NCBI RefSeq assembly: GCF_001643375.1
Contig: NZ_LSHB01000016.1
Location: 1 to 64,000, forward strand
Source: Chryseobacterium sp. FP211-J200
GTDB taxonomy: Bacteria > Bacteroidota > Bacteroidia > Flavobacteriales > Weeksellaceae
Reading direction: 5' to 3'
DNA length: 64,000 nt
Under the pieces are notes generated by a model. The model searched no databases, had not been told where the DNA came from, and was given only the letters and a program-made list of their open reading frames with translations. How positions within the stretch are numbered: the first letter of the stretch is position 1; each line of letters begins with the position of its first letter. Positions 11,036 through 64,000 of the stretch are shown piece after piece. A program made the position numbers and the translations under genes.

Positions 11036-11422
11036 ATGAAAAACTTTACTTTAATTATCGGCGGAATTTACGGTTTATTGTCCGTAGTTCTCGGTGCATT
11101 TGGGGCACACGCCTTCAAAAAAATATTATCAATCGAAAGATTAGAAAGCTTCGAAACAGGTGTTCGTTATCAAATGTATGCGGCGTTTTTCCTTCTCATT
11201 GTCGGATATATTTTAAAATTCGAAACGACATCTGAGAAATGGATTTCAATTTTAATGATTGCCGGAACTTTTATCTTTTCTGTGAGCATTTATTGTCTGG
11301 CTTTCCAAGATGTTTGGGGCGTAAATCTTAAATTCCTTGGACCAATCACACCACTTGGCGGTTTGTTTATGATCATCAGTTGGGGAATGTTGATCTGGTA
11401 TTTTGCGAAGGCTAAGTTCTAA
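11036..11422 (+). CDS. DUF423 family integral membrane protein
   Basis: A 128-aa membrane protein of the YgdD/DUF423 type, with four predicted membrane helices. The first carries the family motif GAFGAHAFKK (about residues 20-29), and the third loop has PITPLGGLFMIISW. The function of the family is not established. It sits between two small hypothetical genes in the same direction, with only a few bases between them. Confidence 0.88.
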   Translation: MKNFTLIIGGIYGLLSVVLGAFGAHAFKKILSIERLESFETGVRYQMYAAFFLLIVGYILKFETTSEKWISILMIAGTFIFSVSIYCLAFQDVWGVNLKFLGPITPLGGLFMIISWGMLIWYFAKAKF

Positions 11423-58713: not shown

Positions 58714-59109
58714 GGGGTTGACTGGTTTCGACAGCAAGGTCAATGGGTAAGTAAGCATGCAGAGAACCGTAGCGCGATCTCTTAAATCCCTTGCTACACA
58801 CTTTTAACTGGCAACGAAGAGTTCGCTCTTGCAGCTTAATCCGAAGTTTAGTAGGATCCAGCGCTTTCCCGAAGATAGTAAGGAAGCAAGATGTCTCACA
58901 AACGCTCTGTTCTGCGGCGTTTGATCCTGGGGCATAGCAATGCAGAAATAAGGTTTTGGGCACTTCGACCAAGATTCGAAAATCTCAGAAGATAAGGTTT
59001 AGGTTGGGTGTTTGCTCTCTGCCTGAGCTCGAAAATCAATAGCGAAATAAGCATGTAGAAATCTTATGTATTGCTTGTTTGGACGAGGGTTCGAATCCCT
59101 CCAACTCCA
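58714..59109 (+). ncRNA. ssrA: Transfer-messenger RNA (tmRNA, SsrA)
   Basis: The 5' end GGGGTTGACTGGTTTCGACA and 3' end GGTTCGAATCCCTCCAACTC form the tRNA-like domain; the acceptor stem pairs GGGGUUG with CAACUCC (one G-U). The reading frame GGC...GCT TAA at 58810-58839 encodes the tag GNEEFALAA with the usual ALAA protease signal. It rescues stalled ribosomes with SmpB and marks the products for degradation. The terminal CCA is not encoded (the DNA reads ACAACC), so it must be added after processing. Its 3' end is the likely attachment site of the integrase element that follows. Confidence 0.97.
59085..59109 (+). other. Likely att core at the ssrA 3' end
   Basis: The T-arm and acceptor 3' strand (GGGTTCGAATCCCTCCAACT) directly precede an integrase gene oriented away from ssrA. 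Tyrosine integrases commonly use this part of tRNA and tmRNA genes. The other att copy should lie beyond the right window edge; the exact boundaries are not determinable here. Confidence 0.55.
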
Positions 59110-59122
59110 CAACCTACACAAC

Positions 59123-60647: not shown

Positions 60648-61232
60648 ATGAAAACAAATGTTAAAAAAATGCTCTGGGAAACAGAGGAAGGATGCTACGT
60701 GTATATAGACTCAAATGTACTCCTGGATGATTTAAAATTTAATAAAGGAAATCAATATCTGATGGAAATTTCCGGTATTGGTATCGTTAGAATGGTTCCT
60801 TATAGCATTAATAAAGAGAAAGGACACCTTGTTTATGACTGCCTTACAAATAAGGACCTATACAATGTCTCTCTTGATAGAATTTTATCAATCAAAGAAA
60901 TTATTTCATATCCCTTACAACATTCTCCGGCAAAACATTTTGACGAGATTGAAAACAAGTATAGCGAGGAATTAATTTATAATATCGATAATCTTTTATC
61001 TGTGATTGAAGATAATGCAGTGGATATTTCCGAGAATGAATATTTGGATGAACCATTATGTGAAGAAGCAATTTACAGAAAGGCTTCTCAGATGGCTTCA
61101 ATGTTACGTATTGCAAAAAAGGAAATTGATCATTTTAGTAATATTGTAATCGATGTAAACAAACTAAGAAAAGCAATTTATCCAGGAGAAAATATTGCAT
61201 CCAGATACAGTAATAAATACTGCCCTGCGTAA
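60648..61232 (+). CDS. Hypothetical protein of the integrated element
   Basis: A 194-aa acidic protein (MKTNVKKMLWETEEGCYVYI start), with no signal peptide or membrane segment. The first ~80 residues look beta-rich (YLMEISGIGIVRMVPYSINK), the rest helical (EELIYNIDNLLSVIEDNAVD; MASMLRIAKKEIDHFSNIVI). I do not recognise a family. Its stop codon overlaps the next start (TAATG), so the two are translationally coupled. Confidence 0.65.
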   Translation: MKTNVKKMLWETEEGCYVYIDSNVLLDDLKFNKGNQYLMEISGIGIVRMVPYSINKEKGHLVYDCLTNKDLYNVSLDRILSIKEIISYPLQHSPAKHFDEIENKYSEELIYNIDNLLSVIEDNAVDISENEYLDEPLCEEAIYRKASQMASMLRIAKKEIDHFSNIVIDVNKLRKAIYPGENIASRYSNKYCPA

Positions 61233-61543
61233 TGGAAATCACTCATAATAATCTGCCAGAAGCTTTGGCGCTACTCCTGCAGGAAGTTCGAGATCTTCGG
61301 CAACAAGTCAGTCAGCTGGAACCGCCAAAGCAAAAAGAAGAATTCTACGGAATTGCTGGAATTGCAAAGATCCTCAACTGCTGTAATACGACAGCACAGC
61401 GGATAAAAAACACAGGATATATAGATGGAGCATTGTATCAGGCAGGCAGGCAAATCTTGATTGATAAAGACAAGCTGCAGCAACTGTATAAAGAGAATGA
61501 ACACAAGATAAAATCAAAAATCAGAAAATCCCTCGCGAAATGA
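61232..61543 (+). CDS. DUF3853 family HTH protein
   Basis: A 103-aa protein with an N-terminal coiled coil (ALALLLQEVRDLRQQVSQLE, about 9-28) and an excisionase-like helix-turn-helix (FYGIAGIAKILNCCNTTAQR, about 38-57; IKNTGYIDGALYQAGRQILI; DKDKLQQLY). This layout matches DUF3853, found in Bacteroidota conjugative and mobilizable elements next to integrases. A role as excision factor or element regulator is likely. The noncoding hairpin array follows immediately. Confidence 0.82.
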   Translation: MEITHNNLPEALALLLQEVRDLRQQVSQLEPPKQKEEFYGIAGIAKILNCCNTTAQRIKNTGYIDGALYQAGRQILIDKDKLQQLYKENEHKIKSKIRKSLAK

Positions 61544-61544
61544 A

Positions 61545-62170
61545 TGGTTTTATAATGTGATTCAAACTCACCTTTTAAATACGGCCAAAAACCACATTAT
61601 AGTAGGCCTACAGCAAACAAGGGTTGTCCACAATTGGACAAGGTGTTTTTATACTCGCCAAAACACTGTAAATCAGGCGACATAGAAAAACACTATGTCG
61701 CTCATAAAACGAAAATAATAGTCTGATGGTTTACCATAAAATTGTGGTAAACCTCAAATTTTAGATCTGTCCACAATTGGACAGACGTATTTCAAAGGGC
61801 AGATTAGCCTTTTGGAAATTAAAAAATATTAACTATAAAGGGTTCGACAAGTTTGTCGAGAGCAACGAAGTTAAAGATTTGAGCGTTTTCACAATTGTAT
61901 GAAAGCGGGAGGAAGACTGATAGATCCGCACAAAGCTGTGCAGATGATAAAAGTGCAACTGTACATTTTAATGGGTATGCTCAAAATTGAGCCGACCTAC
62001 CTCAGTTTGAGGAAGTATAAAAACGACAATTCACGCTTTTATGGAATCGGCTGAGATTTCAGCCGATTACTACAAAGATTTGTTGACTCCTCAAATTTGA
62101 GGTATCATAAAAACACAAATTCGTGTTTTTATGGAAATGGTTGAAGGTGGGAATGGCTGAAATTTCAGCT
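61545..62170. repeat. Array of about fifteen different short hairpins
   Basis: A ~650-bp stretch without genes contains a dense series of small perfect or near-perfect inverted repeats with 2-8 nt loops. Main stems: 61624-61641 (7 bp), 61643-61666 (7), 61677-61701 (9), 61729-61752 (8), 61766-61785 (8), 61843-61860 (7), 61884-61907 (8, one G-U), 61928-61941 (5), 61979-61992 (5), 62000-62012 (5), 62017-62042 (6+2), 62045-62068 (10), 62089-62102 (palindrome), 62106-62133 (11), 62156-62169 (palindrome). A GTAGGCCTAC palindrome is at 61602-61611. The stems differ in sequence, except that 61625-61640 and 61768-61783 share TGTCCACAATTGGACA. Confidence 0.85.
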
Positions 62171-62246
62171 GTGAATAACAAAATAAAAGTTGTTTTTCAG
62201 CCTACATTTTCTACATTAGCTACATTTCGAGTAAAAATTGATAATT

Positions 62247-62993
62247 ATGGATTACCTAAAAACTGGCTTGCCGGATCGATTTAAAAATGTTGTAACTGAA
62301 TCAACGGATTTTGAAAATACAATTTTGTCGAACTTGGATAGGCAAATCATTGAAATTGCAAAGGAGATAAATTATTCGAGAGAAGAATTATCATTCTATT
62401 ACTATGTCGAAAATATTAAGCGCAATATCTTAGAATTAAAAGCCGGCAACCAGCGCTCAATAATAAATTATATTACTGAGCAAACCGTTCCATTATTCGC
62501 AATTGCAAAAGATCAGGAAGTGACCAAATCCTTATTTCAAAATGATGTGATTAAAACCAGATTACCTCAAGCAGAAATCGACAGGAGAATAAATATTTTA
62601 TCAAATGCCCTTTTAGGTATCTATCCGAAGGAAATAATTGAAAAAGAATATAACTTTTGTGACTTTACAATACATGACTACGACGAAAGGACAATCGAAA
62701 GTTTCTTAGGATACGCTAAATTCATTGAAAGTCAAAATTTCTCGCAAATCCGGAAGGCTATCTTAATTTTCGTGTTGATCGACCAAGGAGTTATCAAAGA
62801 AGGAATGCCATTAAAACCGGTCTTAGCTTCAATCTACGGAAACAGGAACATCAATAAGGTATATGAGCACCTCAGAGATTATGAAGAAGGATGCAGCTTT
62901 ATTGATGACATAAAAAAAGATATTACCCATAACAAATACAAAATTTATATAGAAATCGAAAAAGGTGTGCTGTCACACTTTTCACACAAATAA
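62247..62993 (+). CDS. Hypothetical protein of the integrated element
   Basis: A 248-aa soluble, largely helical protein starting MDYLKTGLPDRFKNVVTEST; a TTG codon 9 bp upstream is a less likely start. It has no recognisable motif. KAGNQRSIINYITEQTVPLF and VFVLIDQGVIKEGMPLKPVL-like stretches (the latter reads FVLIDQGVIKEG) suggest a globular all-alpha domain. By position, between an HTH gene and the replication primase, it may serve replication or maintenance of the element; this is inference only. Confidence 0.62.
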   Translation: MDYLKTGLPDRFKNVVTESTDFENTILSNLDRQIIEIAKEINYSREELSFYYYVENIKRNILELKAGNQRSIINYITEQTVPLFAIAKDQEVTKSLFQNDVIKTRLPQAEIDRRINILSNALLGIYPKEIIEKEYNFCDFTIHDYDERTIESFLGYAKFIESQNFSQIRKAILIFVLIDQGVIKEGMPLKPVLASIYGNRNINKVYEHLRDYEEGCSFIDDIKKDITHNKYKIYIEIEKGVLSHFSHK

Positions 62994-63473: not shown

Positions 63474-64000
63474 ATGGGAATTGTTGACGAAATAAGACCT
63501 AAAAGAGAAACGGTCAAGGATCAAAGCCTAAATCAAAATCAGATTTTATCTGAAATAATTAAAAACCTAAAGCCCGCGGATTTCGTCGCGGAAGTCTTCC
63601 CAGTTGTTATTGAGCTCAGAGAAAAACACCAAAATGCTGATGAAGAAGAAAAGACTAAGATTGCGGAAAAGATTTCTAAACTAAAACTGCAGCAGAAAAA
63701 CTACATCGTAATAGCGATTGAGAAAACTCTGCAGTTAGCTGAAAATCTGAAATTAGATTTTTGCTTACACAACAACATAGTATATACCTACAATGGTGTT
63801 TACTGGCAAAGCTTAGAGGATAATGAATTGGAAAGATTTTTAGGAGATTGTGCAAAAACTCTGGGAGTACCAAAATACGATGCATCATATTTCGATTTTC
63901 GAAGTAAAATGGTAAAACAGTTTTTTTCAGTTGCTCACCTTCCAAAACCGGAAACAAAAACAGAATCTGTACTTATCAATCTCCAAAATGGAACTCTCGA
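63474..64000 (+). CDS. D5/P4-type primase-helicase, N-terminal part (cut by window edge)
   Basis: An open frame from ATG to the window end (about 175 codons) with no stop. After a polar leader (MGIVDEIRPKRETVKDQSLN) and a helical segment come FCLHNNIVYTYNGVYWQSLE and DNELERFLGDCAKTLGVP, then SVLINLQNGTL at the edge. The order 'what the cell shows, YNGxYW, FLG..A..LG, NLxNGTL' is that of the D5_N region of phage/plasmid P4-family primases (DUF5906-like), which precedes an SF3 helicase. The helicase Walker motifs would lie beyond the edge. It indicates that the element replicates itself. Confidence 0.72.
   Translation, partial: MGIVDEIRPKRETVKDQSLNQNQILSEIIKNLKPADFVAEVFPVVIELREKHQNADEEEKTKIAEKISKLKLQQKNYIVIAIEKTLQLAENLKLDFCLHNNIVYTYNGVYWQSLEDNELERFLGDCAKTLGVPKYDASYFDFRSKMVKQFFSVAHLPKPETKTESVLINLQNGTL

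Follow-up and report, generated by a model that had tools for sequence, protein, structure and literature searches.

A hairpin array in a Chryseobacterium mobile element contains remnants of phage regulator genes and may serve as decoy or self-recognition DNA

We analysed a stretch of 64,000 nucleotides from Chryseobacterium sp. FP211-J200 (contig NZ_LSHB01000016.1, positions 1 to 64,000; here, the window), which includes part of an element of ~17 kb located between the tmRNA gene (58714-59110) and a repeat of the tmRNA 3' end (TCCCTCCAACTCCAC) at contig position ~76080, the right end of the element. At 61545-62170 this element carries a dense array of short hairpins, among which we recognise coding remnants of phage regulator genes of the AntA, Bro-N and pRha types. 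The explanation that we tentatively favour, on the strength of sequence comparison, is that the hairpins are palindromic sites captured from such genes and that they would act together as decoy or self-recognition DNA. At the level of sequence, the analysis shows the composition of the array, the conservation of its structure, its share in a wider pool of modules and the coevolution of palindrome and protein in the parent families. Other genomes and loci are designated below by G and L numbers.

RESULTS

The array is folded far beyond chance

An earlier note, made from the letters of the window, had described a dense series of short-stemmed hairpins here, and its coordinates, gene context and hairpins were borne out: the array consists of 16 stems of 5 to 11 base pairs (bp) within 640 bp. 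Relative to 20 dinucleotide shuffles per fold, the z scores of the interval were -9.7 for plus-strand DNA, -11.0 for plus-strand RNA and -10.5 for minus-strand RNA. There were 10 stems of at least 6 bp with loops of at most 8, compared to 1.4 expected and a maximum of 5 in 200 shuffles, and 7 stems of at least 7 bp, compared to 0.4 expected from shuffles. Thirteen of the 16 hairpins were individually stronger than almost all shuffles; those at 61550, 61997 and 62014 were weak when folded alone. When hairpin arrays were sought over 1.18 Mb, mostly mobile-element loci, three passed a strict count: the present one, that of G143 and that of G053. The sole exact long unit present twice is TGTCCACAATTGGACA, and the remaining units recur at 71 to 76%. 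A clustered regularly interspaced short palindromic repeat (CRISPR) or iteron array was considered and rejected because a repeated unit of one sequence is lacking, only TGTCCACAATTGGACA being duplicated exactly. The whole array had no real match among phages and plasmids.

Pieces of the array match phage regulator genes

When the array was compared by BLAST with 320 genomes of the same bacterial family, the matches were short (pieces of 24 to 53 bp), and the matched gene segments included an intragenic palindrome. The hairpin part matched 15 places outside its own contig. Five of these lie within regulator coding sequences, namely, an AntA gene (G020), a Bro-N/ANT gene (G154), a pRha gene (G007) and the Rha-related regulator, related to phrog_2657, of G221 and G089. 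One is an AntA leader (G125), one adjoins AntA/pRha remnants (G279), three are similar arrays, and the other five include at least three that look like chance. A reversed array, with composition and stems kept, matched a single place, evidently by chance, which is present in two sister genomes. Of 100 genomes, 14 to 17 contained any one of the four antirepressor-type families; since such genes make up, by rough estimate, ~0.02% of a genome, the five regulator matches cannot be due to chance. Translated remnants matched the same kinds of protein: HCKSGDIEKHYVAHKTKI matched Bro-N at 9e-6 and NYKGFDKFVESNEVKDL matched AntA at 7e-7, with weaker matches of LDLSTIGQTYFK to pRha (6e-4) and of SIKTTIHAFMESAE to the regulator (5e-4).

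A parent gene was assigned for about half of the sixteen hairpins, and most modules are 77 to 96% identical to the gene copies. The stems in the array are equal to or better than those in the genes, and four stem pairs differ between array module and gene homologues on both sides, in compensatory fashion. Such changes support the suggestion of the earlier note that structure, not duplication, was selected. Its description of the region as gene-free holds for intact genes, although pieces of phage regulator coding sequence can be recognised there. The features are as follows.

61545-62170, no strand: hairpin (palindrome) array, from folding and stem counts.
61553-61603, no strand: module common to the G143, G105, G018, G281 and G087 arrays, from array comparison; its coding remnant LLNTAKNHII resembles the KilA-N/AntA remnant of the same element at contig 75090-75117.
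61624-61641, no strand: hairpin TTGTCCA(caat)TGGACAA, first copy, pRha-type (LSTIGQ).
61664-61717, plus: Bro-N remnant HCKSGDIEKHYVAHKTKI with a 9-bp hairpin at 61677-61701, homologous to the G154 Bro-N/ANT gene (HCKSGDTTKRFVAHKNGI) and to G143 and G281 modules.
61728-61766, minus: AntA-type remnant FEVYHNFMVN with hairpin GGTTTACCA/TGGTAAACC; the module recurs upstream of AntA in G125 and within the G053 and G202 arrays.
61761-61796, plus: pRha remnant LDLSTIGQTYFK with hairpin TCTGTCCA/TGGACAGA, matching the G007 pRha gene.
61790-61823, no strand: hairpin module CAAAGGGCAGATTAGCCTTTTGGA, 24/24 identical in G279 and G256; the G279 copy adjoins AntA/pRha remnants.
61813-61887, plus: AntA remnant NYKGFDKFVESNEVKDL, which contains the hairpin TCGACAA/TTGTCGA and matches the G020 AntA gene at 90% over 49 bp.
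61866-61909, plus: AntA-type remnant RFERFHNCMKAG with hairpin, matching a remnant of the same element at contig 74987-75031.
61928-61941, no strand: hairpin GCACA(aagc)TGTGC.
61979-61992, no strand: hairpin GCTCAA(aa)TTGAGC, a module common to the G143 array.
62011-62055, plus: remnant GSIKTTIHAFMESAE with hairpin, homologous to the regulator genes (phrog_2657) of G221 and G089.
62045-62068, no strand: 10-bp hairpin AATCGGCTGA(gatt)TCAGCCGATT, a module common to the G053 array.
62089-62102, no strand: hairpin CCTCAA(at)TTGAGG.
62099-62145, plus: IKxxIxxFMEM remnant, second copy, which contains the 11-bp hairpin CATAAAAACAC/GTGTTTTTATG and matches the G221 regulator gene at 85% over 47 bp.
62156-62169, no strand: hairpin GCTGAA(at)TTCAGC.

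At L070:4950-5100 (G125), the fragment FEVFHKIVENPKRRK and its hairpin immediately precede another AntA gene, as though a gene replacement had left them there.

Related elements draw on a common pool of modules

Arrays or looser clusters of hairpins are found in elements of G143, G105, G053, G087, G202, G018 and G281, and the folding z scores of three of the related arrays are -7.2, -3.7 and -6.1. All-against-all comparison of the arrays revealed a common pool of modules whose order and orientation are shuffled; for example, five genomes share TTGCCCAAAATGGCAA, and the AATGTGA-N7-TCACATT type is present in six. The related prophage-like elements of G143 and G105 have their arrays between two genes that converge, next to both 3' ends, and such an array cannot be a promoter. 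The gene adjoining the present array encodes a DUF3853 protein, which was tried as a marker for arrays and rejected: neither the G020 element (76% identical DUF3853) nor a viral contig with 76% identical DUF3853 has a dense array beside this gene. The hairpins are lacking at the homologous position in the G020 element, an outcome that the earlier note had named as refuting, although related elements carry arrays elsewhere.

Regulator genes of the parent families carry palindromes

The AntA/ANT, Bro-N, pRha, KilA-N and ORF6N antirepressor families are both the source of array modules and carriers of intragenic palindromes. Scoring in the large searches was limited to the top candidates of each genome. 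Among 73 genes of four families from the same bacterial family, perfect stems of at least 7 bp scored 216, compared to 64 in synonymous-codon shuffles (3.4-fold), whereas flanking open reading frames gave 171 compared to 156 (1.1-fold). On viral contigs of widely differing G+C content, palindromes scored 124 compared to 21 in shuffles for Bro-N genes and 206 compared to 46 for KilA-N genes, and stems of at least 8 bp were found in 61% of AntA genes compared to 12% in shuffles. The position of the palindrome, which falls in the part of the gene that encodes the DNA-binding domain, is clustered, mostly at codons 60 to 75 in KilA-N, 53 to 67 in Bro-N and 39 to 59 in AntA.

In KilA-N, the palindrome encodes the segment NF[N/K]xxEFxx[I/V/F]K, with GAATTC at its centre. 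Across 53 sequences, the 13 pairs of its arms are 95% paired, with 152 compensatory cells compared to 45 after shuffling and a covariation score of 0.570 compared to 0.173; in 48 of the 53 sequences, K is coupled to F, and N to I or V. Mismatches in the hairpins of the parent genes comprise 11 G-U and 24 A-C, and this lack of preference for G-U speaks for DNA. In two or three ORF6N genes (L136, L131 and L132), a similar palindrome lies 55 to 130 bp upstream of the start codon, and that of L136 is identical in sequence to the intragenic palindrome of L132.

The palindrome coevolves with the presumed recognition helix

If a protein reads its own palindrome, the type of palindrome is expected to vary with the recognition helix but not with other parts of the protein. 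For KilA-N, the palindrome was correlated with the N-terminal half of the protein given the C-terminal distance (partial r of 0.46) and uncorrelated with the C-terminal domain given the N-terminal distance (partial r of 0.008). The strongest columns outside the palindrome lie at -22, -25, -21 and -26 relative to it, and these four residues (41, 42, 45 and 46) share a face of helix 40-47 as modelled by AlphaFold (predicted local distance difference test, 89). From its position in the helix-turn-helix, we infer that this is the recognition helix. The strongest Bro-N columns lie at -22, -18, -19 and -14, and the top AntA residues likewise flank a conserved Trp (52 sequences). When 249 two-codon windows were ranked at a redundancy of <80% identity, the palindrome windows came out on top for the four helix residues in both KilA-N and Bro-N; the four positions were picked from the same data, a choice that only partly implies the ranking along the gene. 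Codons nearer the helix score much lower, so physical linkage alone is insufficient. As judged from this covariation, the palindrome that each KilA-N, Bro-N and AntA protein reads, as DNA, is thus probably the one within the gene that encodes it. No description of the intragenic palindrome, of its coevolution with the recognition helix or of the palindrome array was found in the open-access literature searched.

A Foldseek search with the KilA-N model gave one match below 1e-3, to DdrC of Deinococcus, a DNA-binding DNA damage protein, at a low template modelling score. A solo Bro-N protein (L083, L108) gave weak matches to models of DinD and DdrC.

DISCUSSION

Captured sites as decoy or self-recognition DNA

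In the explanation that we favour, each regulator protein would bind the palindrome within its own gene, and the array would collect such target sites from AntA-, Bro-N-, pRha- and KilA-N-type genes. As DNA, it would then form a multi-specific decoy or self-recognition set directed against the cognate proteins of rival phages, either titrating these proteins or exempting the element from them. Stand-alone KilA-N, Bro-N and ORF6N proteins of the same families are listed in PADLOC as PDC-S22, PDC-S13 and PDC-S05, which fits an attack that the element must evade; these are predicted defence genes only, and the library attaches no palindrome or immunity element to them. The suggestion of the earlier note that the hairpins bind the small helix-turn-helix proteins of the element came close insofar as DNA-binding proteins are concerned, but the candidates are many phage regulators and defence proteins rather than those of the element itself.

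The proposed mode may be compared to that of aba, the intragenic sequence that exempts a BstA prophage from BstA. In the BstA abortive-infection system, aba is DNA based, specific to its cognate protein and effective in trans at high copy; it is a 63-bp sequence over the bstA start codon and requires CCCGCC direct repeats (Owen et al. 2021, PMC8585504). Like the palindromes of KilA-N, Bro-N and AntA genes, aba is a short DNA element within a KilA-N-like gene, and a cognate reading of this kind predicts the coevolution of palindrome and recognition helix that the alignments of those three families suggest. However, the present array lies outside such genes, the intragenic palindromes are mostly at codons 39 to 75 and lack the CCCGCC repeats, arrays of several specificities have not been described for aba, and the proteins belong to other families. 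Since the defining features of aba are absent and bstA has no comparable palindrome, the array does not belong to the aba family. A KilA-N fragment of the element matched phrog_6287 (BstA) weakly, with an expect (E) value of 0.0017.

Several findings weigh against the decoy or self-recognition explanation. The related arrays are unequal in length and density and some are weaker, which indicates a degree of ongoing decay. No gene of the host genome exceeded the cut-offs for Bro-N, pRha or AntA, so the cognate proteins must have an outside source. The promoters of KilA-N and Bro-N genes carry no second copy of the palindrome above control, aba is not palindromic, and bstA of phage BTP1 has no comparable intragenic palindrome. 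The match of array palindromes to a general library of intragenic palindromes was not above chance, the matches being confined to particular relatives. The choice of helix positions from the ranked data, given above, counts on the same side.

Alternative explanations

Two alternatives are each unlikely but deserve weight. In one, recombination at the rapidly evolving antirepressor locus of prophage-like elements leaves short gene fragments behind, and the hairpins are functionless relics of the palindromes of those genes. The translated AntA, Bro-N and pRha remnants do contain stops and shifts of frame, longer decayed remnants are present in G279 and at the right end of the present element, and the weaker related arrays would also fit. 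Mere relics do not account as well for the fact that what remains of each gene is mostly the palindrome part, with stems that match or surpass those of the genes and show compensatory changes, for the recurrence of the same modules in shuffled order in several genomes or for a folding z score of about -10.

In the other, which we regard as similarly unlikely, the palindromes are operators through which the element senses antirepressors or other regulators made by phages in the same cell and switches its own replication genes. The array lies directly upstream of an operon that starts at 62247 and includes the primase-type gene further on, palindrome and recognition helix coevolve, and two or three ORF6N genes have a similar palindrome before the start codon. 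The arrays between convergent 3' ends in two related elements are unable to serve a promoter, and this placement favours decoy or self-recognition DNA over operators.

It is improbable that the hairpins are mobile palindromes that, like Rickettsia palindromic elements, enter the reading frames of regulator genes without disrupting them and accumulate as arrays between genes. Modules do occur in differing orders and orientations across elements, but the palindromes occupy a single site in conserved domains and are gene-specific in sequence, coevolving with helix residues ~20 codons away. An inserted parasite would share its sequence, and the differences from gene to gene therefore speak against this origin.

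Antirepressors are under antisense control in phages such as P1 and P22, and the C4 antisense RNA of phages P1 and P7 is a non-coding element that controls antirepressor genes. A structured or antisense RNA of this type, acting on antirepressor mRNAs, could account for the strong RNA folding on both strands, and the earlier note had proposed a large structured RNA. We consider this very improbable: Rfam gave no family for the array (five chance-level matches, best E value of 0.43, all far under gathering scores), G-U is not favoured over A-C in the parent genes, modules occur in either orientation, and most are only 77 to 96% identical to the gene copies. C4 acts as antisense RNA, whereas the evidence for the array favours DNA palindromes.

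Least probable of all is a single-strand replication origin or origin of transfer (oriT), also put forward in the earlier note; such origins commonly carry hairpins and a primase-type gene is near, but the array is made of regulator gene remnants, related elements do not conserve it as a whole and two of them have it between convergent 3' ends, and no relaxase above a curated cut-off was found among the element's proteins searched.

Implications

Phages and bacteria often carry KilA-N, Bro-N, AntA and ORF6N genes, but few of the sites that their DNA-binding domains read are known. Should every such gene contain the site of its own protein, specificity could be read from thousands of genes and tested directly. 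If the decoy or self-recognition explanation is true, arrays such as this one would be a new weapon or shield between mobile elements, similar in logic to aba but with many specificities at once. That elements collect the DNA tags of rival regulator or defence proteins as a sequence-memory anti-defence array, with neither nuclease nor guide RNA, is a broader idea that we consider doubtful.

Surroundings of the array

The element encodes a tyrosine integrase, the DUF3853 protein (61232-61543, adjoining the array), an HTH_17 protein, a D5_N/primase-type protein (gene start at 63474) and a tape-measure-like protein, and decayed KilA-N/AntA remnants lie near its right end. The 248-amino-acid gene that follows the array (62247-62993) matched no family and had no relative in the genome-contig or viral-contig scans. 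The other proteins searched gave no virion structural family, despite the tape-measure-like gene (G000 contig 16, 68417-72274; L009:9918-13772), and a similar long gene is present in the G105, G281 and G256 elements. A motif, CTACATTTTCTACATTAGCTACATT, is repeated with ~10-bp spacing at 62176-62230 and again near the right end, at contig 75914-75964; it also occurs at the start of the G105 integrase gene and at the ends of other elements, and its copies may represent arm sites of the integrase or else an operator. At L011 (G007), att-like repeats of the tmRNA 3' end at 11174 and 15212 flank a remnant that includes a pRha fragment and adjoins a second integrated element.
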